Shown: piece by piece, positions 1 through 19,408 of the stretch | Layout: every line of letters starts with the position of its first letter | Numbering within the stretch: the first letter of the stretch is position 1 | Source: a virus | Reading direction: 5' to 3' (one strand) | IMG/VR virus record: IMGVR_UViG_3300017963_000731 | Span: 1 to 24,299 of that record | Length of the DNA: 24,299 nucleotides | The notes under the pieces: model-generated | The model's database searches: none | Seen by the model: the letters and a program-made list of their open reading frames with translations, nothing else | What the model was told of the DNA's origin: nothing | Translations under genes and position numbers: made by a program

Positions 1-830
1 AAATATTCCCTTGCCCTCTCATATGCCTGCTCTCCTATCTTTCCGAGATTCAATATTCCCGGAGGTATCTGGTCGTATTCCGATATTTTAGCAATCAACT
101 GTGTTGAAAGCATTGCAGCAGCAATCTCGTTTACAAGAGCATCCATCACTGGATTACCGTAAGGAGTAGATGAAGAAGGATGCATTACAAGATATATGAT
201 TTCTTCGGGTGCAAAAGATACAACCCTGTTTTTATTAACAAATCTTTGTTCATACCCTCCAACAACACCGTGCTGGTTAATCTTTACATGAAAATGCTTC
301 GGGTCTCTCGACCATATTTCAGTTAGTTCCCTGTTTTTGTTAAATACTTTTTCTATTACAGATGTGTCGTATATAAGGAGGTCTCTTACAACCTTACTCC
401 TGAATGTGCTGAAACTCTCATCGTTTGCGTTCGGATTTTTAAAAAATTCCGTTGCCCTTTTAATTTGGTTTTTAGTCCTGACGCTTATGTTGCTTGTATC
501 CGGCGTATTGCTTACAATTCTCCAGTCAAGGGAAGATATGATTCTTGTAATTCCGTCTATGATTGCACGGATAACAGAAGATTTTAAATATATTTGTTCT
601 AATTCTCGCCAAGATATGTTGTTGTATCTTGCATTTGTAGAGGGAGAAAGGTCTCTGTTTTTACCAAGATCCCATGTAGAGAAGGAAGGGTCGTATGCCT
701 TTGCCCTTTTTTTAATAGGAGCAACTTCGTTGGAAGGAGCAGGAACTTCACGTATGACCTCTTTAGTTACAACTTTGGCTTCCTGAAGCCTTTTTAACGC
801 TATTTTTTGTTCCCATCTATCAAGAAACAT
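1..830 (-). CDS. Phage portal protein, C-terminus beyond window
   Basis: This minus-strand reading frame is open from an ATG at 830 to the window edge, giving about 276 residues. The portal is the dodecameric ring at the capsid vertex through which DNA is packaged and ejected. The N-terminal part is a charged helix, followed by WRELEQIYLKSSVIRAIIDGI, then RDLLIYDTSVIEK, WSRDPKHF and FAPEEIIYLVMHP, then the start of a helical region. This is the usual order of the stem/wing core of portal families that use an early 'G/D-x-x-x-EK/WxxDP' layout. The start is chosen because it follows a promoter and a purine-rich stretch (AAGGAG lies somewhat far upstream). It is transcribed separately from the terminase operon. 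The family call is by pattern recognition; the missing C-terminus prevents a length check. Confidence 0.8.
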   Translation of the reverse strand, partial: MFLDRWEQKIALKRLQEAKVVTKEVIREVPAPSNEVAPIKKRAKAYDPSFSTWDLGKNRDLSPSTNARYNNISWRELEQIYLKSSVIRAIIDGITRIISSLDWRIVSNTPDTSNISVRTKNQIKRATEFFKNPNANDESFSTFRSKVVRDLLIYDTSVIEKVFNKNRELTEIWSRDPKHFHVKINQHGVVGGYEQRFVNKNRVVSFAPEEIIYLVMHPSSSTPYGNPVMDALVNEIAAAMLSTQLIAKISEYDQIPPGILNLGKIGEQAYERAREY

Positions 831-860
831 ATCCTTTTCGCATCTCTCCTTATGCTCACC

Positions 861-875: not shown

Positions 876-887
876 ACTTCTACTTTT

Positions 888-916: not shown

Positions 917-1030
917 GAAGAATTATAGAAAGTATAAAAAATATTTTGCGTATTTATGATTTTCTGTGCATTTTTTGAACAATAAAACGCATTTATAGGC
1001 AGGATGTATCAAAGTGTGTCAAAAGAACAC

Positions 1031-1062
1031 AAAAAAGCCCCGATAGAATTAACTACCGGGGC
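1031..1062 (-). terminator. Rho-independent terminator of the long minus-strand operon
   Basis: On the minus strand, GCCCCG at 1062-1057 pairs with CGGGGC at 1042-1037. A single mismatch and a short TAG/CTA extension close a 5-base loop. A run of six T follows at 1036-1031. It sits 54 bases after the stop of the Cys-rich gene at 1116 and before the portal promoter, so it separates the two units. Confidence 0.85.
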
Positions 1063-1115
1063 AACTAAAGGAGCAAAAAAATCCCTGACGGAGCGGGAAG
1101 AATTTCAAACCATAA

Positions 1116-1457: not shown

Positions 1458-1466
1458 TTTATTCTC

Positions 1467-1997: not shown

Positions 1998-2357
1998 TTA
2001 AAGTATTCCCTCTAGAATATTTTTTAATACTACATATTCGGGGGCAATTAATGACAAAAAACCTTCTATTGCCATAACTAAAAAACTAACAAACAATCCC
2101 GCACCAAGCAACACGCTAATAATTGCACCTATAAGACTGAGTTGATCTTCAAATACATCTAGAGACCATTTTTTTTTAAATATAAGACAACAGACAATTG
2201 TTGAGATTAAAAATCCCAAGAACAATGCCAAAATTCCAACACCTCTCATAAATTCCCCCTTCACCATTATGTCCCATGCATTGATAGATAACCCATCTAA
2301 TTTCAGCATAATGGTTTTTAATCCATCTATTACTTGTTGTTGTATTTCTTGGTTCAT
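1998..2357 (-). CDS. Membrane protein with two helices, unknown (holin-like size)
   Basis: The 119-residue product has an N-terminal amphipathic stretch and two strongly hydrophobic segments, about residues 38-61 (GVGILALFLGFLISTIVCCL) and 74-105, separated by a basic and acidic loop (KKKW, EDQ). Size and two-helix topology would fit a holin or an exclusion protein, but no lysis enzyme lies nearby and no family motif was seen, so the function is open. It has a GAGGAG-type site 5 bases before the ATG and abuts the NrdJ-domain gene, suggesting co-translation. Confidence 0.7.
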   Translation of the reverse strand: MNQEIQQQVIDGLKTIMLKLDGLSINAWDIMVKGEFMRGVGILALFLGFLISTIVCCLIFKKKWSLDVFEDQLSLIGAIISVLLGAGLFVSFLVMAIEGFLSLIAPEYVVLKNILEGIL

Positions 2358-3811: not shown

Positions 3812-4252
3812 CTATTTAATTCCTTCTGGCACAGCAGAACAAGTGCAACCTGCTGATATCGGGGAAATGTGAACAGCACATGGTTCTAATAAAACATTAA
3901 GAGATGAATCAGATATACCCTGCCGAGTAGCACCAAAGACCGTATTCAAGCAAGTCTCGTTACCAATACTCTCGGATTCGATAGAACGTTGGGTGTTGCT
4001 GTTTAATTTTTCGAATATTTGACTCGTGAACCCTAAACTTTTATCGTTGACAGTTAAGCTCTGAACGTTAGATCCTTCTGGATTAGCAGTCCAGTTAATA
4101 TGCTCTGTCTCTCTTGACAGTTGGTATGTTGGATTTGAACCAACAACATTCTGATTGTCAGTCAGAAGCTCTACCATTGAGCTAATACCATCTTCGATTG
4201 ATTCTTTGACCCGAATCGGAGGTTCTTGAATGTTTATGGTTTCCGAATACAT
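3812..4252 (-). CDS. Hypothetical ORF overlapping a tRNA-Val-like sequence
   Basis: This frame codes for 146 residues and has a reasonable ribosome site (AGAGGATGG, 8 bases before the ATG). It fills the only sizeable gap between neighbouring genes. However, residues ~26-43 read MVELLTDNQNVVGSNPTY, the typical false translation of a tRNA gene, and a full cloverleaf can be folded there. The C-terminal half (NTVFGATRQG, PISAGCTCSAVPEG) looks protein-like but matches nothing recognised. It may be a real gene that contains a tRNA-like insert, or a non-coding tRNA region with a chance open frame. Confidence 0.4.
   Translation of the reverse strand: MYSETINIQEPPIRVKESIEDGISSMVELLTDNQNVVGSNPTYQLSRETEHINWTANPEGSNVQSLTVNDKSLGFTSQIFEKLNSNTQRSIESESIGNETCLNTVFGATRQGISDSSLNVLLEPCAVHISPISAGCTCSAVPEGIK
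4120..4191 (-). tRNA. tRNA-Val (anticodon GAC), no encoded CCA
   Basis: On the minus strand a 72-base cloverleaf folds. The acceptor stem is ATGGTAT with ATACCAA (six of seven pairs; the first pair is A-A), then TA at positions 8-9. The D-stem is GCTC/GAGC with a 7-base loop and the anticodon stem TCTGA/TCAGA with loop CTGACAA. The variable loop has 5 bases, and the T-stem GTTGG/CCAAC has loop TTCAAAT. The anticodon GAC reads GUC valine codons. The 3' end is not followed by CCA, so host CCA addition would be needed. The first-pair mismatch is the only defect. It lies in the sense direction inside a 146-codon ORF. Confidence 0.7.
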
Positions 4253-4959: not shown

Positions 4960-6489
4960 CTATCTTCTTTTTTTCCTTCTCCAAACATCAAATCCACCCT
5001 GATTACTGGGATTTATGAGTTCGTTGGCTAAAGAACTAGCTAATTGTAAACTATCAGGGCAGTCATCATGCTTACACAATGGATGTGTCGCCATTTCAGA
5101 AATTAACGAACAATGACCGCAAGTGCATTTTTCGTTTTCCTTCCCGTCAAAGACATATTCTGGTATCGGGTTTTTATGGCAGTAAAACATAAATCCGTCA
5201 TTCTTAACCTCAACTGCCAATTGCTGAAATCTCGCATACTTCTGCTGAACCTTGCCCTCAATATTGCTAAAAGGCAACGGCTTGGGGGAAAGAACCTGCG
5301 TCCACTGAGTCAAAGATTTCTGGTAAAATGCGTTCTCTACCCTTATCCCCTGACAATTCCACTTATCCTGCAACTCGATTATCTTTGCCCCTGTCTCGGT
5401 CGAATCCAGTTTTGCCCTGACTATTTCCAAAGGCACTTTGTAATACTTTTCAGGGTGAATACCCAGCACTGTAATAACAGTATAGTCGGCTCTTACAGAT
5501 TTGGATATGGCAGGATCTACTCCCATTACTTTTATCCAGTTATTGCCAACACCAATGTGTTTCGCAATGTCGGTATCCTCATCCGGCAACATTCTCATTG
5601 AAGATTTAATTTTAGCAATGCTAAAAGTAGATTCTTCGTCTGCCAACGGCTCGCAGTGATAACCTCTCGAAAATGCCCCTGATTCTATTATGTTCCTCAG
5701 TTCAATCAACTGTTGTCTGCTAAACTTCTCCTTCCATATAGGAGTAAAGTTGTGGTCGATTGTTCTGATAAAAGGTGCAAACCCCCTTAGATGCGCATTT
5801 CTCATTAATTCCATTGTAAGATCATCGAAATGAAAAGGTGTCGCAATATATATAAGTTTGCCTTTAGGAGTTAGCAGGTTCACTATTGTGTTTTTAAAGA
5901 TTGTTTTAATAGATTCTCTTGCCTTTTCAGACCTCAATGCTTCTTCACAGCAGATATCATCGCATATTATTAAGTCTTTTCTCGCCCCAGTAGTAGCGCT
6001 GTAGGCACCGATTGCTGAAACGGTAGGGTCTTTTGCGAAACTGTCCCTTTCTATCGTTATAGAAAAAGCACTCCAGTTTGTCTTTGACGGCTTTATATGC
6101 GGGAATAAACGCTGGTATCTTTCGCTTTCAGTAATATATTTTTTAATAGAATCAATACGTTCCTTTGCCGCCCCCTTCTCTTCAGTAAATATCGCAATAC
6201 GAATATTCGGGTTTTGCCCTATTTCATATAAAACTCTTCCAATCGTAACCTGAGACGTCTTTGCATGACCACGAGGACAGACTACAAAATTAAGCCTGTT
6301 CTCAGTTATATGATCCTGCATTTCATTGTGGAAGGGGGCGTTTACAATGCGTAACGATGGGTTCTCATCGTCTACCATAAAGTATGGTATGGCAAGTTTA
6401 GGGTCGTTCCTGATAGTATCAAGATTGTCCGTATCCTTTTTTATGGTGTCTAAAAAGGAATCTATACCCGTATTACTTATTTGGTTCAT
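4960..6489 (-). CDS. Terminase large subunit (packaging ATPase/nuclease)
   Basis: The 509-residue product is the DNA packaging motor, which translocates DNA into the prohead through the portal and cuts concatemers. The ATPase half has Walker A CPRGHAKTS (residues 71-79), Walker B LIICDD (173-178) with a following acidic CCEE, and the coupling motif ATPFHFDD (216-223). The RNase H-like nuclease half has GVDPAIS with Asp325, then ENAFYQ (Glu385) and a late HDDCPDS (Asp475-476, Asp479). Unusually, a Cys cluster, CTCGHC (455-460) plus C472 and C477, sits just before the last catalytic acid. Length is normal. The start overlaps the lipoprotein stop as ATGA. Confidence 0.95.
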   Translation of the reverse strand: MNQISNTGIDSFLDTIKKDTDNLDTIRNDPKLAIPYFMVDDENPSLRIVNAPFHNEMQDHITENRLNFVVCPRGHAKTSQVTIGRVLYEIGQNPNIRIAIFTEEKGAAKERIDSIKKYITESERYQRLFPHIKPSKTNWSAFSITIERDSFAKDPTVSAIGAYSATTGARKDLIICDDICCEEALRSEKARESIKTIFKNTIVNLLTPKGKLIYIATPFHFDDLTMELMRNAHLRGFAPFIRTIDHNFTPIWKEKFSRQQLIELRNIIESGAFSRGYHCEPLADEESTFSIAKIKSSMRMLPDEDTDIAKHIGVGNNWIKVMGVDPAISKSVRADYTVITVLGIHPEKYYKVPLEIVRAKLDSTETGAKIIELQDKWNCQGIRVENAFYQKSLTQWTQVLSPKPLPFSNIEGKVQQKYARFQQLAVEVKNDGFMFYCHKNPIPEYVFDGKENEKCTCGHCSLISEMATHPLCKHDDCPDSLQLASSLANELINPSNQGGFDVWRRKKRR

Positions 6490-6827
6490 ATCTTCTCAAT
6501 TCCAACAATTTTACCGTCTATCATCCATCTGCCTTCTAAGGGCAAATCCACATTATTAAGTTCATGGTCTTCCAGATCATCATAATATATTTTGATGCTT
6601 TCTTTTAACGGTATTCTCCATCTATTCGGGTTCCAGAATATCTTGCTTTCTCCGTTGTCAAACGCAATAATGTGAATGTTCGTGCCAAGATCAAATACCA
6701 TCAAGGGGGTTCCCTTGTAAATATAGGGCATGATATCAAGAATATGCCCCATAATGTTAAGCATTGTACAGCCGGTCAAGGATATTGCTGTTATTAGAAT
6801 TAGCGTTGATAGAAATGTTGTTTTCAT
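6486..6827 (-). CDS. Small lipoprotein upstream of the terminase
   Basis: The 113-residue product has an N-terminal hydrophobic signal and the lipobox LTGC (Cys20), so it should be a membrane-anchored lipoprotein. The mature part contains GTPLMVFDLGTNIHIIAF and DLPLEGRWMIDGKIVGIEKI, suggesting a small beta fold. It is placed between a capsid paralogue and the terminase, with three bases to the former and a four-base overlap with the latter, so it is translated with structural genes. The role is unknown; superinfection exclusion is one possibility. Confidence 0.75.
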   Translation of the reverse strand: MKTTFLSTLILITAISLTGCTMLNIMGHILDIMPYIYKGTPLMVFDLGTNIHIIAFDNGESKIFWNPNRWRIPLKESIKIYYDDLEDHELNNVDLPLEGRWMIDGKIVGIEKI

Positions 6828-6830: not shown

Positions 6831-7685
6831 TTATCCCTTTTTATCCTCACGTTCGTAATTTTTGCAATACTGGCATCCCTCTGGCTCAGCATCCATTGAC
6901 TCTAATTGCAAAGCTGTTATATGTTTTGGATTATCTATCATTAGATATTCTTCACATTCTAGTAAAAAACCAAACTCGGTATCAGACAATTTATCTACAT
7001 TAAACCTCAATGGATACTTCTCTACAATCCACAACCTGCTCGTATCAATAAATAACAGCGTTGTGTCATCAGGAGACATGTGATGAGTTGCATATATAGG
7101 TATATTATTATACGTTATGTGTCTGTCCCCATTAATGTTAATTACACCAATAACGATTCCTAGGTTGTGCAAGTGTGCAGTAAACCCTCTTCTGCTTCTA
7201 TGCGCCATCATAATCATATCTGGACTGCCAGTATTCAGATCCATCGCTTCGTCTACTTTTTTAATAAAATCAGCAGATCTTTTAGGTGTTTCCCCCTTTA
7301 CCATACTTGGTATTTCAACTGAATCTATTAAACCTTTATAGCCGCAATTTTTATCCCCATAAATATAGGATTCCATTTCGCAGTATTTAAAAGATTCAAT
7401 TTTGTTTTCTACTTCTTCATCTATTGAAGTTAAGAGATAATCCAACCTATCAGTTTCGTTTGTTATATTACTTAAATTCACATCGGGTTGTGGGGCAACC
7501 CCCATTGCAACTAATCTACGAATACGAGGTAGCAATGATAATCTTTCTTCTTTTGCGAGTTCATTAATATTTGCTCTTTGGATAGCACGTCTAATTGGGT
7601 TATTGCAATTTACCATCTCCTCTAATTTGTCGTGATATTTATTGATGTGCCTTAAAATATCGTTCTGTGTGTTAGTTAAATTCAT
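6831..7685 (-). CDS. Capsid-protein paralogue C (HK97-fold type)
   Basis: With the ATG at 7685 (ATGA overlap with the upstream gene) the product has 284 residues. It shares with the plus-strand capsid protein at 14232 the blocks NPIRRA, YIYGDKN, VDEAMDLNTGSPDMIMMAHRSRR, YNNIPIYAT, LWIVEKYPLRF, FLLECEEYLMIDNP. These are the P-domain and A-domain elements of that family. It lacks the longer N-terminal and loop parts of the 318-residue copy and adds a Cys-containing tail (GCQYCKNYE). Being adjacent to paralogue B and cotranscribed with the terminase, it may be a minor or penton capsid subunit. Homology is read directly from the shared motifs; the role is inferred. Confidence 0.7.
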   Translation of the reverse strand: MNLTNTQNDILRHINKYHDKLEEMVNCNNPIRRAIQRANINELAKEERLSLLPRIRRLVAMGVAPQPDVNLSNITNETDRLDYLLTSIDEEVENKIESFKYCEMESYIYGDKNCGYKGLIDSVEIPSMVKGETPKRSADFIKKVDEAMDLNTGSPDMIMMAHRSRRGFTAHLHNLGIVIGVININGDRHITYNNIPIYATHHMSPDDTTLLFIDTSRLWIVEKYPLRFNVDKLSDTEFGFLLECEEYLMIDNPKHITALQLESMDAEPEGCQYCKNYEREDKKG

Positions 7686-8434
7686 TTGCTTTCTCCTTCC
7701 ACTGTCAGCATAGACAGTTGTTCGGGGTTTATGATTCTTAAATATTCTTCGCATTGAATTGTGTAATCAAACTTGTTCATAGTCAATTCATGTATTACAA
7801 ACTCTGTCGGGTACTTCTCTATGACGTCAATATTGTCGGTGCTTAAATACAATATCGTGGGATCGTCCGGCTGGATATGGATAGTTACATATATGGGCAT
7901 ACCGTTATATGTGGTAAGGGTGAAGCCGTTGTAGAGTTCGGTAGACACATAGACGCCTCTTTTTGTGAGCAAATTATTTAAGCTCCTTCTTGATTTTCTG
8001 CTCATTATCATCATATTCGGGCATCCCCCGTTCAAGTCCATAGCGTGATCGATATCCGTTAATCCGTATTCCCAATCTTCATCAACTAATTTTATGTTAT
8101 TTTCAGGAACGCATTGCTTTATGCTTGGGAATCCTGAACCGTTAGCCCCTATGACAAAGGTTCTTTCTTCTATGTCTTTCATCGACACAATTTTATGATC
8201 AATATCGTCTTTTATTCGGTAATCAAACTTTAGTTTGTTATCAGGATTGTTAATTAAAGTCCCCCCTGTTTTAAGGATTTTCATTTCAAAATCTTCCGTT
8301 TCGCCTGATTTTTCAAAAGGTATTCTTTTGAACGCTTTGCGTATCGGGTTCTGGTAGTTCATGTATTCTTCCATGTGTTCAAAATATGGAGATACGGCTT
8401 TTAATATTTCGTTGTGCTTACGATTAAGTTTCAT
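7682..8434 (-). CDS. Capsid-protein paralogue B (HK97-fold type)
   Basis: The 250-residue product aligns by eye with the capsid protein at 14232 and with paralogue C. Shared blocks are YQNPIRKAF near the N-terminus, IEERTFVIGANG, AMDLNGGCPNMMIMSRKSRR, YNGMPIYVTIHIQPDD, VIEKYPTEF and FDYTIQCEEYLRIINPEQLSML. It is shorter than the plus-strand copy by about 70 residues, missing part of the extended loop region. A clear AAGGAG precedes the ATG. It follows three HTH genes and precedes paralogue C with an ATGA overlap. It could form pentons or decorate the capsid, or be the relic of another phage's capsid gene. Confidence 0.7.
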   Translation of the reverse strand: MKLNRKHNEILKAVSPYFEHMEEYMNYQNPIRKAFKRIPFEKSGETEDFEMKILKTGGTLINNPDNKLKFDYRIKDDIDHKIVSMKDIEERTFVIGANGSGFPSIKQCVPENNIKLVDEDWEYGLTDIDHAMDLNGGCPNMMIMSRKSRRSLNNLLTKRGVYVSTELYNGFTLTTYNGMPIYVTIHIQPDDPTILYLSTDNIDVIEKYPTEFVIHELTMNKFDYTIQCEEYLRIINPEQLSMLTVEGESK

Positions 8435-8450
8435 TGATCTTCTCCTTAAT

Positions 8451-8786
8451 TTACAAATATGCTAAATAGCTGTTCCAATCGAACAACTCCTTGATTTCTT
8501 CCTTATTCATGTTTTCCAATTTATCCTTGATTGCCATTACAGCTTCCTGCACCCATGCAACATTATCGTCCCTTATGTCGATTTTAATAGGTACGCTACC
8601 AACATTTACAATTTCGGGGTCTATTCTTATAATCTTCCTGTCATCAAAGAAACGGTAGTGCGGTATCAACCCCTTGACCATCCAGTTGTGTATTGTTTGA
8701 GGATCAACACTGATATATTCCGCAAATTGGTTTATAGTCATAAGTTTCTTCGGATAATTCGGATATATCTTGCTTTTTACTGCCAT
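8451..8786 (-). CDS. Excisionase/MerR-type HTH DNA-binding protein
   Basis: The 111-residue product has MTINQFAEYISVDPQTIHNWMVKGLIPHYRFFDDRKIIRIDPE, the compact winged HTH of the excisionase (HTH_17) type: helix, turn, recognition helix, then the wing with a basic R-K-I-I-R-I strand. A helical C-terminus (AVMAIKDKLENMNKEEIKEL) may dimerise. It starts inside the end of the preceding HTH gene, just after a run of ten A in the mRNA, and has no clear ribosome site, so translation probably depends on its neighbour. It may regulate the operon or act in recombination. Confidence 0.8.
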   Translation of the reverse strand: MAVKSKIYPNYPKKLMTINQFAEYISVDPQTIHNWMVKGLIPHYRFFDDRKIIRIDPEIVNVGSVPIKIDIRDDNVAWVQEAVMAIKDKLENMNKEEIKELFDWNSYLAYL

Positions 8787-9328
8787 AAAGATTTTTTTTT
8801 TCGGTGCAGATCCTTATTTATATATGTTGCAGGTACAAAACTATCCTTTAACCATTTGTCAAGGTCATAATAAGAGTAACTCCCCGGAAACTTATAATAC
8901 GGTATAGATCTTGCACGAGTTCTCCTGTGTATACCAAGAGTTGCTTCATGTATGCCCAACATCCTTGTTACATAATTTGCACTCATTAAAATTTTGCCCT
9001 GATATTTTTTACCTTGAGGGATATTCTTTTTGTCTCTTGGATCGAGAGGCACAGTCCCCCCGAAATGCTTTGTTGTAGGCATCCTCAATCCTTTTTCTGC
9101 ACAATAATTTTTTACAGCCATGTAAACCTGAGACTTAGACAAATTGAATTTCTTGCCGATCTTCGAGCAGGAATTGTATCTTTTTTTATACATCAAATAC
9201 ATCTGTTCGTCCCGTTCTATGTTTGGAATGTTCTTCACTATCTTTTTGGGGATGCGATCTTCAGTCATTTTAGTGTAATAGTAGTATCGTTTTTTCTTGC
9301 GCTTTTTCTTTTTTTCTTTTTCTTCCAT
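8777..9328 (-). CDS. Two-HTH DNA-binding protein with basic N-terminus
   Basis: The 183-residue product opens with an extremely basic tract (KEKKKKRKKKR, then YYYY). A first HTH lies around residues 50-75 (SCSKIGKKFNLSKSQVYMAVKNYC), resembling resolvase-type HTH. A second, excisionase-like one lies around 112-160 (SANYVTRMLGIHEATLGIH...RSIPYYKFPGSYSYYDLDKWL). The end is again basic (HRKKKS). It is the middle of three adjacent HTH genes and probably a paralogue of both neighbours in its second domain. A DNA-binding regulator or nucleoid-type protein is likely; the target is unknown. Confidence 0.75.
   Translation of the reverse strand: MEEKEKKKKRKKKRYYYYTKMTEDRIPKKIVKNIPNIERDEQMYLMYKKRYNSCSKIGKKFNLSKSQVYMAVKNYCAEKGLRMPTTKHFGGTVPLDPRDKKNIPQGKKYQGKILMSANYVTRMLGIHEATLGIHRRTRARSIPYYKFPGSYSYYDLDKWLKDSFVPATYINKDLHRKKKSLWQ
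8792..8801 (-). other. A10 homopolymer at the junction of two HTH genes
   Basis: The mRNA has ten consecutive A in the codons for Arg-Lys-Lys-Lys of the upstream HTH protein, just before the overlapping start of the next HTH gene. One extra A, or a -1 shift, would join the two frames through Ile-Phe-Met into a single protein of about 290 residues. Whether slippage happens is unknown. Confidence 0.4.
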
Positions 9329-9332
9329 TAGC

Positions 9333-9584
9333 TTATAACTTTGGATTTTTTAACGGGTTATGCTGGTATTTAGGGGTAGGTTGATCGAGATCGTCTTTGG
9401 CAGGGGTGTAAAATTCCTGTAAAGAATCAGGGTCTATGCGTATTGCTCCTCTTTTCCCAATCCTAAAATGCGGTAAAGACCCATCACGTATGTATCTGCC
9501 TATCGTGGCTTCAGACAGCCCTGAATATTTTGCAAACTTCTTTATCGACAATAGTTGTTTCCCATTTTCCGGTTTATTCACCAT
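9333..9584 (-). CDS. Small excisionase-type HTH protein, first gene of minus operon
   Basis: The 83-residue product contains LLSIKKFAKYSGLSEATIGRYIRDGSLPHFRIGKRGAIRIDPDSLQEFY, a clear excisionase/HTH_17 domain with a basic wing. The rest is a short proline-rich tail. It is the first gene after the strong minus-strand promoter at 9639-9667 and has AAAAGGAG about 10 bases before the ATG. Small size and position next to a divergent promoter suggest a regulator of the two divergent operons; excision is possible, but no integrase or attachment site is visible. Confidence 0.85.
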   Translation of the reverse strand: MVNKPENGKQLLSIKKFAKYSGLSEATIGRYIRDGSLPHFRIGKRGAIRIDPDSLQEFYTPAKDDLDQPTPKYQHNPLKNPKL

Positions 9585-9612
9585 TTTTTATCATTCTCCT
9601 TTTACTGTAATT

Positions 9613-9629
9613 TGGCATAAAACTTGCAT
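9613..9629 (+). promoter_or_regulatory. Sigma-54-like -24/-12 promoter (plus strand)
   Basis: TGGCATAAAACTTGCAT keeps GG and GC 12 bases apart as required for sigma-54. Its predicted start (near 9639) falls on the -10 box of the minus-strand sigma-70 promoter, so the two would exclude each other. It points to the plus operon at 9749, about 110 bases downstream, which also has a closer sigma-70 promoter. Confidence 0.55.
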
Positions 9630-9638
9630 TTCATTAAT

Positions 9639-9667
9639 AATATATATATGATGATACCAAATGTCAA
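9639..9667 (-). promoter_or_regulatory. Strong sigma-70 promoter for the minus operon
   Basis: On the minus strand TTGACA at 9667-9662 and TATATT at 9644-9639 are exactly 17 bases apart, close to the ideal. The start should be near 9632, giving a leader of about 48 bases to the HTH gene at 9584. Confidence 0.8.
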
Positions 9668-9695
9668 GAAAAACTATAAAAAAATATGTTTTGAC

Positions 9696-9724
9696 TTGAT
9701 TTTTCATGTCAGGGATAGTATATT
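9696..9724 (+). promoter_or_regulatory. Sigma-70 promoter for the plus operon
   Basis: TTGATT at 9696-9701 and TATATT at 9719-9724 are 17 bases apart. The predicted start near 9731 gives a short leader with AAAAGGAG before the ATG at 9749. Its -35 lies back to back with that of the minus promoter, 28 bases apart. Confidence 0.6.
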
Positions 9725-9748
9725 TAATTATGTGCAAAAGGAGAAAAT

Positions 9749-9949
9749 ATGGATGATAAAAGATTATGGGAAATCAGGAAGGAACTTTCCAGAAATGGCG
9801 GAAAATATTTGTTTATACAGCCAATATTGCCATATTTAGACGAGATTAAGAAAAATATGCAAAAGACATGGAAGGGAAGGATGAAATTGAAATGGTGGGG
9901 ATTCCGATTGAGGCTGAATGATTGGTTTGAAAAAAATTATTATTATTAA
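9749..9949 (+). CDS. Small basic hypothetical protein
   Basis: The 66-residue product is basic and Trp/Tyr-rich (LKWWGFRLRLNDWFEKNYYY at the end) with a helical N-terminal half. No family was recognised. It is the first gene of the long plus-strand unit, with AAAAGGAG seven bases before the ATG. Confidence 0.7.
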   Translation: MDDKRLWEIRKELSRNGGKYLFIQPILPYLDEIKKNMQKTWKGRMKLKWWGFRLRLNDWFEKNYYY

Positions 9950-9959
9950 GGAGACAAAA

Positions 9960-10229
9960 ATGCCAAAAGCTGGAAAAGCGATAATACCAGATTTACAAGG
10001 AAGAATTGTTGAATTAGAAGAAAAAGTTAAAAGTTTAGAAGAAGAAATTACGGAGTTGAGGAATAATACCATTGTTTATGGTCGAACCTTCCCTCCAAAC
10101 GATGATATTGTTAGGGATAATTATTTAAACATGAATAATTGCACATGCTTTGGTGTTCACCCTTGTGGTGATGGATCGGGGCATGAAGATAATTGTCCTT
10201 GCAATCCGATTAATAGGGAAGAAAAATGA
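9960..10229 (+). CDS. Small coiled-coil protein with Cys-rich tail
   Basis: Starting at the ATG at 9960, which follows AAGGAG, the product has 89 residues. Residues ~12-38 form a clear heptad coiled coil (IVELEEKVKSLEEEITELRNN). The tail holds NCTCFGVHPCGDG and DNCPCN, five Cys and two His that could bind metal. An in-frame ATG 14 codons earlier lies inside the preceding gene and lacks a ribosome site. The function is unknown. Confidence 0.7.
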   Translation: MPKAGKAIIPDLQGRIVELEEKVKSLEEEITELRNNTIVYGRTFPPNDDIVRDNYLNMNNCTCFGVHPCGDGSGHEDNCPCNPINREEK

Positions 10230-10492
10230 ATAAATATAAAGCGTTAAATTGGAAAGATGAATTTCAAAAATTAGGGCTTGATTGTGATTTGACATCTACT
10301 CCAACTTGGGTTATGTCTGCTGGTTGCTCTTGTGCGTATCTCTCGCCAGAACATGGCGACTATAAAGACGATGAACTCGACTTTGGTGTAGTTATAGGAC
10401 AAAGGAATTTCGGTCATATTAGTGGCATAGCATATTATGACGAAGAAAGTTGTAAATCTGCAATAGAAATATATAGGAGTCGGAATGAGTAA
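10226..10492 (+). CDS. Small hypothetical protein
   Basis: The 88-residue product has SAGCSCAYLSPEHGDYKDDELDFGVVIGQ in the middle and a Cys in the last helix. It overlaps its neighbours by ATGA upstream and eight bases downstream, as expected in a translationally coupled phage operon. No family recognised. Confidence 0.7.
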   Translation: MNKYKALNWKDEFQKLGLDCDLTSTPTWVMSAGCSCAYLSPEHGDYKDDELDFGVVIGQRNFGHISGIAYYDEESCKSAIEIYRSRNE

Positions 10493-10832
10493 AGATTGGA
10501 TGAAAAACATAAAAAGGTGCTGGAAGTCGGGCGACCCCGATGTGGTTGCAAAATGCTCTAATTGCAGTGCATTGGATTATGATGGGAAAGAAATAAACTT
10601 AAATGACCCTGATGCCATGATAAACTTGGAATTTACCAGTAAGATTGGCTTGCCGATCCACTCCCCTTGCATTACAAAAAACAGTCAAGAATGTTGGGAG
10701 TGCTACTGCCCGTTTTCAAAGTATGCATACTGCCTTACAAGAGAACAGGTGGAACAAGTTTTGCAACATGAAAAGCATATTATAGAAAGAATTGAAGAAT
10801 TTTTAAAGGAAAAAATAAAGGGCAATGATTAA
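10485..10832 (+). CDS. Small Cys-rich protein, probable zinc binder
   Basis: The 115-residue product holds KCSNCSALDYDG and then SPCITKNSQECWECYCPF, with further Cys before a C-terminal helix (EQVEQVLQHEKHIIERIEEFLKEK). The CxxC pairs suggest a zinc fold. GGAG precedes the ATG, and both ends overlap adjacent genes. The function is unknown. Confidence 0.7.
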   Translation: MSKDWMKNIKRCWKSGDPDVVAKCSNCSALDYDGKEINLNDPDAMINLEFTSKIGLPIHSPCITKNSQECWECYCPFSKYAYCLTREQVEQVLQHEKHIIERIEEFLKEKIKGND

Positions 10833-11100
10833 ATTTAGGGACATGAAGGCAGGGAAAGTAAATGGAACCCCTCAAGAAAAGTGGTATGGTATACGTATTT
10901 GCGGAGGATATTTGCATTATACCAATGAAAACCGATGGACTCTTATAAAACATGATATATATAAATGGTTGGCAATTCACTTTCTTGCAAAAGCTGATAA
11001 ACTTGTAGATAAGATGGTTACAGAAGATTGTATAAGAAAAAGGGAAGAAAATTGGGGCAAAGTTTATAAACTGGTTGAAAAAAAGGAGAAACAACAATGA
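10825..11100 (+). CDS. Small hypothetical protein
   Basis: The 91-residue product reads as a short beta part (KWYGIRICGGYLHYTNENRWTLI) followed by charged helices ending in KLVEKKEKQQ. No motif recognised. It overlaps both neighbours by a few bases. Confidence 0.7.
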   Translation: MIKFRDMKAGKVNGTPQEKWYGIRICGGYLHYTNENRWTLIKHDIYKWLAIHFLAKADKLVDKMVTEDCIRKREENWGKVYKLVEKKEKQQ

Positions 11101-11468
11101 AAATCGAAATAACAAAACACAACATGGTTGATTGGAACAATATTAAAGGGAATTACGAGACGGAAATAAATCTTCCTTTCGAATATATCAAATTAGATAA
11201 CGAATATTCCATTCCTACAAACTTTGAATTTTGCTGTCAAAAAATGGTAGGATTGTTTATGGAATCAAAGGTTAGAGTTGGAACAGATCAAATATTCTTT
11301 AACAATGTCCCCCTTACCCAATGCCCATACTGTAAATCAAACTTTACTTTTGAAATAAAGGAAAAGGGAATTGTTGTTGAAAAACCAGAAACCGAAAAAG
11401 ATTACGAAAAATTAGATGAAGCAATGGAGAAATTACAAAACAGGAAAATAATTGAGGAGGTGAAGTAA
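11097..11468 (+). CDS. Small zinc-ribbon-like protein
   Basis: The 123-residue product has FCCQKMVGLF and, about 40 residues later, TQCPYCKSNFTFEI, two Cys pairs typical of a zinc ribbon. A charged helical tail follows. ATGA overlap with the preceding gene and a good AAGGAG site. The role is unknown. Confidence 0.7.
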   Translation: MKIEITKHNMVDWNNIKGNYETEINLPFEYIKLDNEYSIPTNFEFCCQKMVGLFMESKVRVGTDQIFFNNVPLTQCPYCKSNFTFEIKEKGIVVEKPETEKDYEKLDEAMEKLQNRKIIEEVK

Positions 11469-11472
11469 CAAT

Positions 11473-11631
11473 ATGTGCATGATATGCCCTGAATGTAAAC
11501 AGAAAAATAAATTAGCAAAATTAGAAAGGCAGAGAGATATTTTATCCCAGATGGAATATTACTACTGCTGGGTATGCAGTAATTATTACGGAACAAATAT
11601 AAAAAAGAAAGAAGGTGAAGGAACATGCTGA
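11473..11631 (+). CDS. Tiny zinc-ribbon protein (52 residues)
   Basis: An ATG at 11473 follows GAGGAGGTG and opens 52 codons: MCMICPECKQK at the start and YYCWVCSNYYG after a 20-residue helix, ending by overlapping the next ATG (ATGCTGA). Two CxxC knuckles suggest one bound zinc. Position, ribosome site and overlap all fit a real gene. Confidence 0.65.
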   Translation: MCMICPECKQKNKLAKLERQRDILSQMEYYYCWVCSNYYGTNIKKKEGEGTC

Positions 11632-11882
11632 AATGGGCTATAATTTTAAACAAAGTTACACAGATCATGCTTATTGCAGAAGATGGCAAGATCGATGACA
11701 TGGAAGAAGATATTCTTGTGGAAATGGTTGCCCCTGAATTAGCAAAACTTTACAAGAAAGAAACTGGTGTGCCTGTTGAAAAATGGGGTATAGTAAAAGT
11801 TCTGGTTAAAATTGCTCAAAGAACAATCGAGATAATCAACGCAAGAGATTCTAAAGAGAACGGCTCAATGAGCGAATATTAA
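11625..11882 (+). CDS. Small helical hypothetical protein
   Basis: The 85-residue product is acidic and helical (LIAEDGKIDDMEEDILVEMVAPELAKLYKKETGVP), then a hydrophobic helix. The 'EDGKIDDMEE' stretch is loosely EF-hand/TerB-like but too short to assign. It is the last gene before the -24/-12 element at 11919. GAAGGTGAAGG precedes the ATG. Confidence 0.65.
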   Translation: MLKWAIILNKVTQIMLIAEDGKIDDMEEDILVEMVAPELAKLYKKETGVPVEKWGIVKVLVKIAQRTIEIINARDSKENGSMSEY

Positions 11883-11894
11883 TCTATCTAAAAT

Positions 11895-11916
11895 CTATCC
11901 CTAAATTTTGGGATAG
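11895..11916. promoter_or_regulatory. Inverted repeat directly upstream of a -24 element
   Basis: CTATCCC and GGGATAG form a 7-base stem around an 8-base loop, ending three bases before the -24/-12 motif. There is no T run, so it does not look like an intrinsic terminator; a protein-binding site or leader hairpin is possible. Confidence 0.45.
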
Positions 11917-11918
11917 GT

Positions 11919-11935
11919 TGGCATAATACTTGCAT
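11919..11935 (+). promoter_or_regulatory. Sigma-54-like -24/-12 promoter (plus strand)
   Basis: TGGCATAATACTTGCAT matches the -24/-12 consensus with the correct 12-base GG-GC distance. The predicted start near 11945 is about 31 bases before the TTG start at 11976. It lies in the only real gap (93 bases) between 9749 and 18056. Confidence 0.7.
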
Positions 11936-11975
11936 ATTTAATTTGTAGATTTTTAATAATTTTAAGGAGAATAAA

Positions 11976-12191
11976 TTGAACGAATCTTTAGCAATCAGAT
12001 ACTCCTTCCAATCCTGTATGCTTTACGGAATCAAAGAGTCAATGGACGGAAATTGCACAGGGGATCTGTTTATTCTTTACGCATATCTATATTTGTTAAA
12101 CAATAAGGTGCATTTCAATCTGTTTCAGATTATACATGCGTCCCTAGAGATAAACAAAATTATAAACAACTTTTGGTGGCTGAACAATTGA
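11976..12191 (+). CDS. Small hypothetical protein with TTG start
   Basis: A TTG at 11976, 7 bases after TTAAGGAGA, opens 71 codons. The product is hydrophobic and aromatic (LFILYAYLYLLNNKVHFNLFQII), possibly one membrane helix or a buried core, and has two Cys. No family recognised. First gene after a -24/-12 element. Confidence 0.6.
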   Translation: MNESLAIRYSFQSCMLYGIKESMDGNCTGDLFILYAYLYLLNNKVHFNLFQIIHASLEINKIINNFWWLNN

Positions 12192-12346
12192 AAACAAAGC
12201 ATTGGGATAAATTAACTTGCGAATACTGCAATACAAGTATCTGGTATGAATATCGGGATCTTGAAAATGCAATAAAACAAATGGAAAAGCATGTTAAAGA
12301 AAAACATAAAGAGAAGGAGAAGGATAATGACGAAGAACAAGATTGA
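12188..12346 (+). CDS. Tiny C2H2-like zinc-finger protein with TTG start
   Basis: A TTG overlapping the previous stop (TTGA) opens 52 codons: LTCEYCNTSIWYEYRD then EKHVKEKH. The C-x2-C ... H-x4-H spacing resembles a single C2H2-type zinc finger, followed by a charged tail. A GGTGG lies upstream as a weak ribosome site, so coupling to the previous gene is likely. Confidence 0.5.
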   Translation: MKTKHWDKLTCEYCNTSIWYEYRDLENAIKQMEKHVKEKHKEKEKDNDEEQD

Positions 12347-12599
12347 ATACGACAAGAACAAAATTTTAAAGCCCCTTAAATGTCAAGTATGCGGTAAAGT
12401 AATTGCATATAAATATACATTTAAGGAAAATATTCTGAAAGATTTGCTTAACGAAGCAAAGATAAAAAATGAAATATTCGAAGAAGATATCGTAGTTTGC
12501 TGTCAACCTAAAAGATTAACGTGCGTTAAGAAATTTCAGGATATGCTCCTGCCTAAAATCGAAATAGCAAACGAAGAAAGCGGAGTGTGCAAAAAATGA
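12327..12599 (+). CDS. Small zinc-finger-like protein
   Basis: With the ATG at 12327 after AAGGAGAAGG the product has 90 residues. It contains KCQVCGKVIAYKYTF and later VVCCQPKRLTC, four or five Cys in a pattern that could bind zinc. It overlaps the preceding tiny gene and the following gene (ATGA). Confidence 0.65.
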   Translation: MTKNKIEYDKNKILKPLKCQVCGKVIAYKYTFKENILKDLLNEAKIKNEIFEEDIVVCCQPKRLTCVKKFQDMLLPKIEIANEESGVCKK

Positions 12600-13120
12600 A
12601 CAATGTTAAAGATCGAGTTTACGAATTGTTATGGGAACTTTTTAAGGATGAGTGTTTATATATTCAAAAATTAAAAGAATATTATGAAATCGGAGACAGG
12701 GATAAATTAAATTTAAATCAATTCATACATGAATTTAGAATTGCCAATAATTTTATGAAATCGGCTGAAATAGCGACCATCCTTTTCGAGATATTGCCTG
12801 TGGAAATAATAATAGACAGAAGAACATACCATGATGGATTTAGAAAGGATGTAATCTTTGGAATAATCAAAGGAGAAAATAGTTTATTTGAAAAAGAAAA
12901 GGGGATAAATTTATGTAGATCTAACATTGTCACTTGGGAGAAATTACCAGACGGGTTTCAAGAAAAAGTAGCTGCTGCATTAGAAGACCTCCATATTTTT
13001 AAGCAAATATATAAAAAAACAATAGAATTGTTCGAACAGGAATATCTTGAAAAAAGACAAGAAGCGAGAAATGAATTAGAATCCATCGGGATTAAATTCA
13101 GGGAGGAAATGAACAAATGA
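12596..13120 (+). CDS. Hypothetical helical protein
   Basis: The 174-residue product is predicted mostly helical (YELLWELFKDECLYIQKLKEYYE, ... FKQIYKKTIELFEQEYLEKRQEARNELESIG) with a central mixed part. No motif recognised. The ATG at 12596 overlaps the upstream stop; a GTG nine bases earlier is in frame but too close to the GGAG. Confidence 0.65.
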   Translation: MNNVKDRVYELLWELFKDECLYIQKLKEYYEIGDRDKLNLNQFIHEFRIANNFMKSAEIATILFEILPVEIIIDRRTYHDGFRKDVIFGIIKGENSLFEKEKGINLCRSNIVTWEKLPDGFQEKVAAALEDLHIFKQIYKKTIELFEQEYLEKRQEARNELESIGIKFREEMNK

Positions 13121-13692
13121 ATAACAAAGAACATAGAATAATGGTAACGGGGACCGGCAGAAGTTTTACATCCCTCCTGATGGCAATCTTTACATATGTT
13201 GGATGGGATACTGGATTTACCGAAGAAAGTATAAATAAATATCTGGGGGATAAATGTGGATGTGGAATGGAAGATTTCTACCGCAATGCATATATAATTA
13301 AGCGCCCAATGAACGATCTTGTCCCAATCGAAGCTTTTCTGACCCATTTTGAATATGATCTTCTCATAATTCCGATAAGGAATCTATACCACGCATCTCA
13401 ATCAAGAGTAAGAATACATAAAATGGGGGAAACTGCCGGAGGATTAACGCATACAAGAGTGCCTGAAGAACAATATAATAATTCTGCAATATTTTTAGGT
13501 GAACTTGTATCTACGGCAGTATTGATGAATATCCCAATGCTTTTCATTAAAGCCCCGCTGTTTCTGCATGATTTTGAATACTTATGGGAAACAATATATT
13601 CCTGCCCACAACTTCATACCCAGAAGATGGATAAAAAATTGATGCACGAAGCATGGGAAAAACTTGTTGATTTGAAGAAAATACATTTCTGA
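13117..13692 (+). CDS. Sulfotransferase-like P-loop protein
   Basis: The 191-residue product starts with a beta strand and P-loop (RIMVTGTGRSFTSLLMAIF) that resembles the 5'-phosphosulfate loop of PAPS-dependent sulfotransferases (usual form xxPRSGTTxL). It continues with WDTGFTEE. Around residue 90 it has LIIPIRNLYHASQSRVRIHKMG, like the 3'-phosphate motif where an Arg and a Ser bind PAPS. A late MLFIKAPLFLHDFEYLWE follows. If active it would move a sulfo group to an unknown acceptor, perhaps a surface sugar. Similar P-loop proteins in phages can instead be kinases. ATGA overlap with the upstream gene. Confidence 0.55.
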   Translation: MNNKEHRIMVTGTGRSFTSLLMAIFTYVGWDTGFTEESINKYLGDKCGCGMEDFYRNAYIIKRPMNDLVPIEAFLTHFEYDLLIIPIRNLYHASQSRVRIHKMGETAGGLTHTRVPEEQYNNSAIFLGELVSTAVLMNIPMLFIKAPLFLHDFEYLWETIYSCPQLHTQKMDKKLMHEAWEKLVDLKKIHF

Positions 13693-13708
13693 TAATAAGA
13701 GGATACCA

Positions 13709-13903
13709 ATGAAAAATGAAATTTCTATATCTATACACGGATGGGAAGAAAAAATTATTACCCTTCCTAAAGCATGTTCATCTTGCCAATCCCAAAATAT
13801 AAGAACTTACGTATATGCTACTTGCTGGGGCGAATTGAGACTGGAAGTAGGGATGGAATGTCTTGATTGCGGAGAATTAACTGGAATATTTGAATCGCCA
13901 TAA
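13709..13903 (+). CDS. Tiny zinc-ribbon protein
   Basis: The 64-residue product has ACSSCQSQNIRTYVYATCWGELRLEVGMECLDCGELTG: CxxC, about 30 residues, CxxC, a typical zinc ribbon with beta strands between the knuckles. AGAGGATACCA precedes the ATG. The partner is unknown. Confidence 0.7.
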   Translation: MKNEISISIHGWEEKIITLPKACSSCQSQNIRTYVYATCWGELRLEVGMECLDCGELTGIFESP

Positions 13904-13921
13904 TAAAAGAAGGAGAATAAC

Positions 13922-14230
13922 ATGCCAGAAAAACTAAGCCTTAAAAATGCAGTATTCTACAAATCGAAAATTCAGGAACTCCTGCCAAACATGAATGTCA
14001 CTATTCACTCCCTTACAGAAGGGAAGGATGAGTTCGGTATCCAAATAGCAAAGCCCCAAAATTACTCCGGTATTAGATTTTTAAATTTAGACTCTCTTGA
14101 TGCATTCCTCTGGGGTATTAAGGAGAAAATAGAAAACGATAAATTGGAAATCCAGAAATACGCAAATACAATATGTGTGTGCGATAATACAAACAACTGT
14201 TCCAAATTTGAACAAGGAGAGTTGGGATAA
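13922..14230 (+). CDS. Small hypothetical protein upstream of the capsid gene
   Basis: The 102-residue product has an alpha/beta look (NMNVTIHSLTEGKDEFGIQIAK, LDSLDAFLWGIKEKIENDKLEIQKY) and a Cys-containing end (ICVCDNTNNCS). It sits one base before the capsid gene start and could be a small capsid accessory, but nothing in the sequence proves it. AAGGAG precedes the ATG. Confidence 0.65.
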   Translation: MPEKLSLKNAVFYKSKIQELLPNMNVTIHSLTEGKDEFGIQIAKPQNYSGIRFLNLDSLDAFLWGIKEKIENDKLEIQKYANTICVCDNTNNCSKFEQGELG

Positions 14231-14231
14231 C

Positions 14232-15188
14232 ATGACTTATACCGATATTTGGACAGAAGGATTGGCGACTATTCGCAAGGCTTTGACTTCAGCAAATTCA
14301 GGGAATGCTCTATTACAGCCTGTAGTTGATGCAGTTGTACCACTGATGTGTGATTACCAAAACCCTTTGAGACAAAATATCCCCAGAAAATTGGGTAGTG
14401 GTCAAGGCTGGACAATAAACCGGCGTACTCCGGGATCTACTCCTGCTGAATGGGAGACGGATGTAGATTTCGTAACAGAGGACACAGGCAGCTATGAACA
14501 ATTCCTATTTCCATATAGAACTCTTTTGACAAGAGGCAAGGTGACCCGGAAACTTCAACCGACAGGCGCGTCTTATATTGACGTACTTATGGAGGAGATA
14601 GAGGGAAAGATTATCGAATTCAAGAATTATGAGGATCAAACTTATATAACCGGAGTTTCTTCTGAAACTGATTTTGACGGTTTTCAAAACCTATCTTCTG
14701 AGGATCAGATGATAGCAGCAAATGGTTATTTGTCTTTGGATAAAATAGATGAGGCAATGAACAAGAATATTGGTAATCCGAACATGATGGTTATGGCTCG
14801 AAGAACAAGGCGAGAATTAAATGCTCTTTTACAAGAGTACCAGCAATTTATCGATGTAACCGAGGTCAAAGGTGGATTCCGTTTGATGAGCTACAATGGT
14901 GTTCCGATTTACGTCAGCACAAATGTTCCAACCACTCAACTATTTAATGGAGTAACCGAAGGCTCCAATACTGGAGGTTCTTCCAGTTCAATATATTTTA
15001 TTGACACAGAGCATCTTTGGGCTGGGGAATTAACACCAGTGAGGATGTTACCTATGGCAAAAACCACCCAGCAATATGACGAGTTCGAAATCTTCTGCGA
15101 TGAAGTTCTCGTTTTAAGGAATCCAATGTGTATATCGAAACTCATCGGGATATGGGAAAGACACTTAATAACTGAAGGGGCGATATGA
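14232..15188 (+). CDS. Major capsid protein, HK97 fold
   Basis: From the ATG at 14232 the product has 318 residues. Typical elements of HK97-fold phage capsids are visible. There is an N-terminal region with YQNPLRQNIPRK and an E-loop-like part (WTINRRTPGSTPAEWETDVDFVTEDTGSYEQFLFPYRTLLTRGKVTRKL), a spine helix (YIDVLMEEIEGKIIEFKNYEDQTYITG) and P/A-domain blocks IDEAMNKNIGNPNMMVMARRTRRELNALL, YNGVPIYVST and CDEVLVLRNP. It resembles the 'phage major capsid protein' type with gene length near 320 residues. It lies far from the portal and terminase and on the other strand. Two shorter paralogues exist at 6831 and 7682. Confidence 0.85.
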   Translation: MTYTDIWTEGLATIRKALTSANSGNALLQPVVDAVVPLMCDYQNPLRQNIPRKLGSGQGWTINRRTPGSTPAEWETDVDFVTEDTGSYEQFLFPYRTLLTRGKVTRKLQPTGASYIDVLMEEIEGKIIEFKNYEDQTYITGVSSETDFDGFQNLSSEDQMIAANGYLSLDKIDEAMNKNIGNPNMMVMARRTRRELNALLQEYQQFIDVTEVKGGFRLMSYNGVPIYVSTNVPTTQLFNGVTEGSNTGGSSSSIYFIDTEHLWAGELTPVRMLPMAKTTQQYDEFEIFCDEVLVLRNPMCISKLIGIWERHLITEGAI

Positions 15189-16255
15189 TGAAAATAGATT
15201 TAGCTGAACTCCAAAAAAGAATTGATGAAGGGTTGATCAACAAAAAGAAACACCCGGAACACGATATTTATATCTACAATTATAGCATCGGATGCCAATT
15301 CGACAAGAAATGGGACGAATATACCAGAATCTCAAGAGGATTGATTTTAGACCCCTACGGATATGTAATATCCAAACCCTTCGAGAAATTCTTCAACCTC
15401 AACGAAATGCCGGAATCATCCATAGAAAAGATTCTCAAAAAAGGCAAACCTGTAATTACAGAAAAACTCGACGGCAGTCTAGGAATAATGTATTTCCATA
15501 AAGGAGATATGGGAATCGCCACAAGAGGTAGTTTCGAGGGAGAACAGGCAGTATGGGCAACCAACTGGGCTAAAAACAACATAAATTTACATGAAATAAA
15601 GCACTCCTATACATACCTCTTCGAGATAATATACCCCGAAAATAGAATTGTTGTGGATTATGGGGATAGGGCTGAATTGGTTTTGCTTGCAATGATATCA
15701 AAGGTAGACGGCACGGAAGAAAACTACATTGAAAAACATGCAGAACAAATAGGAGTTAAGTATGTAAAATTTTATGACTTTACCCTATCAGAAGCAATTA
15801 AATTGTTGCCAGGATTAAAAGGGACAGAACAAGAAGGTTTTGTCGCCAAATTTAAAGATGGGTCGAGAGTTAAATTAAAAGCAGACGAGTACTTTTTGTT
15901 GCATAAAACACTTAATGCCCTTTCATCTGTTTCAATATGGGAATGTCTTAAAAACAACATAGAAATTGGTAATCTCGGAATAAATAGATATCCTGAACTT
16001 GAATCTTGGGTTAAAGAAGTTGAGGGTGAATTAAGATATCAATATTTTAGTGTGGAGATTACGGCAAAAAGAATATTTAATGAAATAAAAGATATGGAAA
16101 CGAGAAAAGAGCAGGCTCTATATCTAAAAGAACACGCACCCGATTTATTGGGCATTGTTTTTAACATGATTGACCATAAATCATGGAATAAACTAATCTG
16201 GAAGAAAATTAAACCAGAAACATCGAAGCTTAAATGGATAGGAGGAGAAAAATGA
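15185..16255 (+). CDS. T4 Rnl1-type RNA ligase
   Basis: The 356-residue product is close in length to T4 RNA ligase 1 (374). It has SRGLILDPYG, PFEKFFNLNE and the nucleotidyltransferase motif I EKLDGSLG with Lys94 as the expected AMP-bound residue. Then come a motif III-like YLFEIIYPENRIV, motif IV EGFVAKF and motif V VKLKADEYFLLHK, followed by a helical C-terminal domain. It should seal 5'-phosphate and 3'-hydroxyl RNA ends with ATP, as in tRNA repair after host anticodon nucleases. No polynucleotide kinase/phosphatase is seen here. The start overlaps the capsid stop, and an AAGGGG lies upstream. Confidence 0.9.
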   Translation: MMKIDLAELQKRIDEGLINKKKHPEHDIYIYNYSIGCQFDKKWDEYTRISRGLILDPYGYVISKPFEKFFNLNEMPESSIEKILKKGKPVITEKLDGSLGIMYFHKGDMGIATRGSFEGEQAVWATNWAKNNINLHEIKHSYTYLFEIIYPENRIVVDYGDRAELVLLAMISKVDGTEENYIEKHAEQIGVKYVKFYDFTLSEAIKLLPGLKGTEQEGFVAKFKDGSRVKLKADEYFLLHKTLNALSSVSIWECLKNNIEIGNLGINRYPELESWVKEVEGELRYQYFSVEITAKRIFNEIKDMETRKEQALYLKEHAPDLLGIVFNMIDHKSWNKLIWKKIKPETSKLKWIGGEK

Positions 16256-18433: not shown

Positions 18434-19408
18434 ATGAGCAATAAAGAAAAAAAAGATGATTTACTATCATTATATGGAAAAGAACCTAAAAATGTAATCA
18501 ATGCTTTTTTAAAGGTTAAGCCAAGAAATGGAGGGATAAAAAAAGTGAGTGAACATCCAAAAAGGGAACAATTGCCTTTAGCAAAACATAAGGGGAAATT
18601 GGTGTTGGGAGACAAGGAAATTGATTGTTATGTTTTAGATACCGAAGAAAGAGTCATAAGTTTAAGGGCAGCAGTTACATCTATAACCAAGGTAGAAGGT
18701 GGAGCCTTGGAGGATTATCTTGGGGTTAAAGCCTTAAAATCCTTTATTGACAAGGATTTAGTTCTGGAGGAAACTATAGAATTTAAGCAACCTAAGTTAG
18801 ATTGGATTACAAAAGGGATTAAAGCGGAAAACTTTTTAGATATATGCAGGGCTTATGTGAACGCTTATGTAAATGAAAAGCTAACAACATCAAGACAAAA
18901 AGAAATAGCTATTCAATGTAGTATTTTATTAAGTGCTTGTGCAAAAGTAGGTTTAATTGCTCTTATTGATGAAGCAACCGGATACCAATATGAAAGGAAT
19001 CAAGAAGCCCTCAGAATTAAACTTGCCGCATATATTTCAGAAGAGCTAAGAGACTGGGAAAAAACATTTCCAGACGAATTATGGGAAGAATTTGGGAGAT
19101 TAACAGGATGGAGTTCGACAAGACTGCACTCAAGACCAAAGTGGTGGGGGAAATTAGTTATGGAGGTTATTTATGATGCTCTCGATCCAGATGTTGCTCA
19201 ACATTTAAGGGAAAACAAACCGCCACCAAGACATAAAATGAATTATCACCAATGGATGACGTCAGATGTTGGATTAAAAGCATTGATACCTCATATAAAC
19301 CAAATAATAGGTATCGCCAAAACTTGCGAATCGTTAAGCGAATTTAGGGAGCAAGTTGGTTATCATTTTAAAAAAGAACCATTGCAATTAAGATTACCGA
19401 GCAAATAA
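18434..19408 (+). CDS. P63C-domain protein
   Basis: The 324-residue product carries, from about residue 180, a run typical of the P63C domain as remembered: ATGYQYERNQEALRIKLAAYISEELRDWEKTFPDELWEEFGRLTGW, RPKWWGKLVMEVIYDALDPDVAQHLRE and HKMNYHQWMTSDVGLKALIPHI. The N-terminal part has a beta-rich ERVISLRAAVTSI segment. P63C proteins occur in phages and mobile elements; their activity is not established. It starts directly after the truncated methyltransferase without a strong ribosome site, and its stop overlaps the next start (TAATG), so it is coupled to the methyltransferase-nuclease gene. Confidence 0.75.
   Translation: MSNKEKKDDLLSLYGKEPKNVINAFLKVKPRNGGIKKVSEHPKREQLPLAKHKGKLVLGDKEIDCYVLDTEERVISLRAAVTSITKVEGGALEDYLGVKALKSFIDKDLVLEETIEFKQPKLDWITKGIKAENFLDICRAYVNAYVNEKLTTSRQKEIAIQCSILLSACAKVGLIALIDEATGYQYERNQEALRIKLAAYISEELRDWEKTFPDELWEEFGRLTGWSSTRLHSRPKWWGKLVMEVIYDALDPDVAQHLRENKPPPRHKMNYHQWMTSDVGLKALIPHINQIIGIAKTCESLSEFREQVGYHFKKEPLQLRLPSK

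Follow-up and report, generated by a model that had tools for sequence, protein, structure and literature searches.

Four homologous capsid genes at three loci of an uncultured tailed phage, two of which appear to lack the E-loop region

The window, as we call the stretch of DNA analysed here, comprises a 24.3-kb virus record (24,299 nt; IMG/VR record IMGVR_UViG_3300017963_000731) which terminates within the portal gene. The source virus is an uncultured tailed phage. The initial annotation had named three diverged HK97-type capsid paralogues on opposite strands of the window, and the ORF coordinates agree with the places, strands and lengths it gave for them (P0001, P0002 and P0004; Table 1). 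An alignment also recovered the sequence blocks it had listed, in order across the three proteins. BLASTP comparison gave E-values of 2e-22 for P0001 and P0002, 7e-20 for P0001 and P0004 and 8e-42 for P0002 and P0004, and each of the three matched phrog_212, 'major head protein' (1.3e-18 for P0001, 3e-4 for P0002 and 1.4e-5 for P0004). These BLASTP and PHROG E-values rule out chance similarity. Judged from their sequences, P0001, P0002 and P0004 are intact homologues from one HK97-fold capsid family, and the proposed HK97-type paralogy is upheld by sequence, by the phrog_212 profile and, for P0002, by the predicted fold.

A Shine-Dalgarno-like sequence was identified ahead of each of the three starts. 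The genes of P0002 and P0004 overlap by ATGA (7682-7685), which marks them as a predicted translationally coupled pair. The longest ORF of P0004 runs from 7754; the start at 7685 has GGAAGGAGA and the overlap with the end of P0002. Both genes are on the minus strand, flanked by HTH genes and the gene of the large terminase subunit; P0001 starts immediately 3' of the preceding ORF and its stop overlaps the RNA ligase gene. Promoter-like counts were somewhat higher than in shuffles and terminator-like counts no higher; being so close to the shuffles, these counts allow no reading of expression timing.

Table 1. Capsid homologues and other features of the window
Feature	Position	Strand	Basis and remarks
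Portal gene, 5' part	3..830	-	Pfam PF04860, phrog_12; continues left in L022/G003 (632 aa)
tRNA-Val (GAC) in the terminase-portal interval; a 146-aa ORF on this strand overlaps it	4119-4192	-	
Terminase large subunit	4960..6489	-	phrog_38 1.4e-67; strand and unit of P0002/P0004
Small lipoprotein-like ORF, 113 aa, between P0004 and terminase	6486..6827	-	ORF list
P0004, short capsid paralogue, 284 aa, E-loop region apparently removed	6831..7685	-	BLASTP, phrog_212, spacing table
P0002, short capsid paralogue, 250 aa, E-loop region apparently removed	7682..8434	-	BLASTP, spacing table, AF2 model, Foldseek
HTH_17 protein, 111 aa, directly upstream of P0002	8451..8786	-	Pfam HTH_17 3.4e-6, weak terminase-small-subunit PHROG matches
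P0001, second full-length capsid protein, 318 aa, HK97 fold by homology	14232..15188	+	BLASTP, PHROG, alignment with MCP1, codon analysis
T4 Rnl1-like RNA ligase, start overlaps P0001 stop	15185..16255	+	PF09511 3.6e-20, phrog_562 3.9e-62
DNA methyltransferase (N6_N4_Mtase) with C-terminal Mrr-type nuclease domain, one protein	19408-20868	+	
Lone HTH_23 / Terminase_5-like protein, candidate small terminase subunit, far from large subunit gene	23118-23675	-	

Three overlapping IMG/VR records (G001, G002 and G003) and the window together give a sequence of ~93 kb. G001 (37.4 kb) differs from window 2221-24299 by 1 mismatch, G003 (33.4 kb, from a different sample) shows 100% identity to window 1-2199 over 2199 bp, and G002 (53.7 kb, from the sample shared with G001) matches window 1-123 at 100%. 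The tetranucleotide distance between the window and the left pieces was 0.10-0.14, against 0.28-0.43 to relatives, and their gene contents are complementary, indicating that the join is probably right. The contig ends of the three records repeatedly fall near window 1-123 and 2199-2221, a hint of assembly branching or a shared segment around the portal start. A pentapeptide-repeat gene is found both at the right end of G001 (L011:18349-18906) and at the left end of G002 (L018:1-422), with repeats 84-88% alike, so that G001 and G002 may close a ~93-kb circle. The versions from two samples differ by a 108-base indel within a large putative fibre gene (L019:17108-17217 vs L021:12321), and the contigs around it are otherwise nearly identical. 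A cassette of glycosyltransferase-like, methyltransferase-like and radical-SAM-like genes was seen beside putative tail fibre genes at L019:2748-11226 (-), and L011:6516-8336 (+) encodes a DNA polymerase III beta-clamp-like protein of 606 aa with a long acidic N-terminal extension.

A fourth capsid homologue, MCP1 (~317 aa), lies 3.3 kb left of the window, at about -4290 to -3337 in window-equivalent positions. The gene order left of the window is portal, ClpP-like head protease, a further protease-like ORF, a scaffold-like ORF encoding an acidic protein and MCP1, after which come the head-tail adaptor and tape measure genes. Following the portal, protease and scaffold-like genes, MCP1 occupies the canonical position of a major capsid gene, and it is almost certainly the main shell protein, which makes P0001, P0002 and P0004 all additional copies. 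Searching the ~93 kb in all six frames with the profile returned exactly four capsid homologues (E <= 5e-67; next E ~1), where a single one is usual. The three homologues of the initial annotation are thus real, and its count of three missed the canonical copy just outside the window; its placing of hexon and penton subunits among the three window copies does not stand. MCP1 and P0001 are 68% identical in the alignment, and ~90% identical in the C-terminal P-domain strands. If two related phages with a common portal region had been misjoined, MCP1 and P0001 would be alleles of different viruses and the window virus would hold three copies only. The recurring contig ends would fit such a misjoin; however, the 2199-bp overlap is identical throughout, the tetranucleotide signatures match, the gene contents complement each other, and neither a second terminase nor a second head arm was found, so we consider it highly unlikely.

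Relatives of MCP1 were identified in 19 IMG/VR records (41-52% identity) and in one Elusimicrobia genome (43%). Each of them has exactly one capsid gene, a count that covers only what the records, which are fragments, hold; several span the terminase-to-capsid stretch and have no paralogue there. In a tree with these relatives and outgroup phages, MCP1, P0001, P0002 and P0004 formed one clade with moderate support (89/87), indicating that duplication in this lineage is the most likely origin of the copies. Phylogeny had been proposed as the means of telling duplication from import, and the same clade disfavours import from a different phage group. P0002 and P0004 are sisters (100/100) on a long stem of 1.75, with tips of 0.93-1.2, and the branch lengths of MCP1 and P0001 are 0.18 and 0.27. 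AU tests on the branching order among the four copies gave 0.58 and 0.24 and singled out no order. Nucleotide similarity between the MCP1 and P0001 loci ends at the gene, which rules out duplication with flanks.

Codon analysis of MCP1 and P0001 gave a dN of 0.26 with dS saturated; such a value with third positions near saturation indicates that both have long been kept under purifying selection. For P0002 and P0004 dN/dS was ~0.33, a rough figure at such divergence. By both analyses the copies are old, functional genes. Pseudogene decay is ruled out by intact frames, ribosome-binding sites, dN/dS and the confident fold of P0002.

In HK97-fold shells, one flexible subunit usually forms both hexamers and pentamers; the E-loop is a main source of this flexibility and clasps neighbouring subunits. 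We compared motif spacings in an alignment of 14 full-length proteins, namely 12 representatives of the relatives together with MCP1 and P0001. The NP motif and the glycine that follows the spine helix are 96-101 residues apart in 14/14 full-length proteins, against 66 in P0002 and 80 in P0004; for the YNG motif and the proline of the P-domain the distance is 41-51, against 33 in both short proteins. The other core spacings of the pair are near-unchanged, and both of these spacings are normal in P0001 and MCP1. By position in the fold, the first gap probably corresponds to the E-loop hairpin and the second to an axial-domain loop. The spacing leaves P0002 and P0004 without the extended hairpin from N-arm to spine helix that characterises an E-loop, and for this reason we file them as capsid-derived paralogues and not as typical capsid proteins. 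The short type was not found elsewhere in IMG/VR, phages or plasmids, and the pair's own patterns, used as the query, matched in this virus only.

P0001 lies in a transcription unit different from that of MCP1, and it could for this reason replace MCP1 under some conditions or at some times, giving two interchangeable major capsids and a short accessory pair. This would suit a P0001 of full length and normal spacing, encoded on the strand opposite to the head module, with a branch length like that of MCP1 (0.27 vs 0.18) and nearly the same C-terminal P-domain strands. However, one scaffold and one portal would have to serve two shells, we came across no inversion or switching signal, and we know of no precedent for dual-capsid switching; we hold such replacement to be a lesser possibility. 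The initial annotation had suggested alternative capsids under different promoters, which may thus hold for P0001 and is unlikely for the short pair, in which the E-loop region and the axial-domain loop are missing.

The AlphaFold2 model of P0002, built from a 16-sequence alignment, reached a pLDDT of 87.1 and a pTM of 0.82. It comprises a 25-residue spine helix (70-94), long P-domain strands (202-217 and 221-234) and the helices and strands of the A-domain, and a single long strand stands between the N-arm and the spine helix. With A-domain, P-domain, spine helix and long P-domain strands all present in the model, P0002 is predicted to have the HK97 fold; P0001, P0004 and MCP1 are assigned to it by homology only, and a structure prediction of MCP1 from four sequences (pLDDT 37) was set aside. 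Foldseek placed encapsulins at the top (E 5.6e-12, TM 0.66), among them the two-component Family 2B, followed by phage capsids including lambda and HK97; many viral capsid models were matched as well. The failure to superpose that would have spoken against the initial annotation did not occur for P0002.

P0002 and P0004 might then form a separate small two-component HK97 shell, a phage-encoded encapsulin-like compartment. Their size of 250-284 aa, their coding as a coupled pair and the top Foldseek matches to Family 2B and other encapsulins would be in line with this. Nevertheless, PMC12407261 counts the E-loop among the features conserved in the HK97 fold, in encapsulins too, and no cargo enzyme was recognised near the pair in the ORF list or by PHROG and Pfam. 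Compact HK97 folds may also match encapsulins because both are without large insertions. Neither the adjacent cargo enzyme gene nor the non-viral context of an encapsulin was found, the neighbours being HTH, terminase, portal and head/tail genes. We find such a compartment extremely unlikely.

We favour, with about an even chance of being right, the reading that a single ancestral capsid gene was duplicated and its copies specialised within this phage's own lineage; presence in virions and the roles that follow are what we infer. MCP1 would make the bulk of the shell. P0001 would be a second full-length subunit with, most likely, a distinct place in the MCP1 shell, for example by forming pentamers, which is the solution of T4 gp24, or by entering mixed capsomers. 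P0002 and P0004 would come from the packaging/head gene unit as a coupled pair which has kept the HK97 core (P-domain, spine helix and A-domain) and lost the E-loop. They would jointly serve as minor subunits where the E-loop clasp is unwanted, such as the vertex or the portal-proximal ring, or otherwise as assembly regulators capping or timing shell growth. Several points count against this explanation: P0001 sits among non-structural genes on the opposite strand, so that its expression time may differ from that of MCP1; a simple penton role needs fewer than two short paralogues; and, to our knowledge, E-loop-less pentons have no structural precedent. It is possible, though we think it improbable, that all four HK97-fold proteins have separate stations in the shell and that P0002 and P0004 make a distinct capsomer, for example the pentons or a portal-proximal ring, without the E-loop clasp. 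If true, a capsomer would work without a clasp that is considered central to the fold.

P0002 and P0004, and perhaps P0001, may also mimic capsid protein and, without entering virions, have MCP1 or a host factor as their binding partner, acting as assembly inhibitors, as size or timing regulators, or as decoys for capsid-sensing host defences. The missing E-loop region, the much faster divergence of the pair (stem 1.75 and tips 0.93-1.2, against ~0.2-0.3) and its position between HTH genes and the terminase gene would be consistent with this, as would host CapRel immunity, of which a viral capsid protein is the direct activator (PMC9712102). However, the HK97 core is fully kept in the P0002 model, spine helix and long P-domain strands included, and a role outside the shell seems rather unlikely to us.

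On the favoured reading of a duplicated and specialised capsid gene, four retained copies, two of them without the E-loop region, are a natural experiment on the splitting of a flexible subunit into specialised ones, and the same phage informs what the E-loop is needed for. Two copies without the subunit-locking loop suggest that the shell, or the process that builds it, has parts of unusual specialisation. The four capsid genes are small, and direct co-expression is feasible.

PMC12407261 describes T4 as the only virus in which two HK97-fold proteins have separate roles. Its gp24 is a probable duplicate of gp23 which has diverged (~20% identical) and forms the vertices; the need for gp24 can be bypassed through point mutations in gp23 (PMC9958956). 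The present phage resembles T4 in having HK97-fold paralogues that arose, judging by sequence, through duplication and divergence; unlike in T4, there are four copies at three loci on both strands, two of them without the E-loop region. By this comparison it stands outside the T4 family: the family profile searched against solved structures gave no T4 chain at E<=1, and the PHROG is phrog_212. With the phrog_212 major head proteins (Rhodobacter phage RcRudolph, Pseudomonas phages Epa5/YuA and Brevundimonas phages) it shares the capsid family by profile and a similar portal-to-capsid gene order, but identity is only ~20-31%, and MCP1 matched 101 phage records at a single place in each. In Streptomyces lydicus, Enc1 and Enc2 (Family 2B) are two HK97-fold shell proteins of one operon that co-assemble (PMC12407261). 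Family 2B encapsulins are the nearest PDB folds to P0002 and likewise come as a coupled or operon pair, yet their E-loop bears an inserted domain and they have cargo, whereas here the E-loop region appears deleted and the pair lies in a phage packaging unit. No phage with duplicated major capsid genes beyond T4 was found in the open-licence literature. As far as these searches show, what is new is the copy number, the distribution over three loci and the absence of the E-loop region from two copies.
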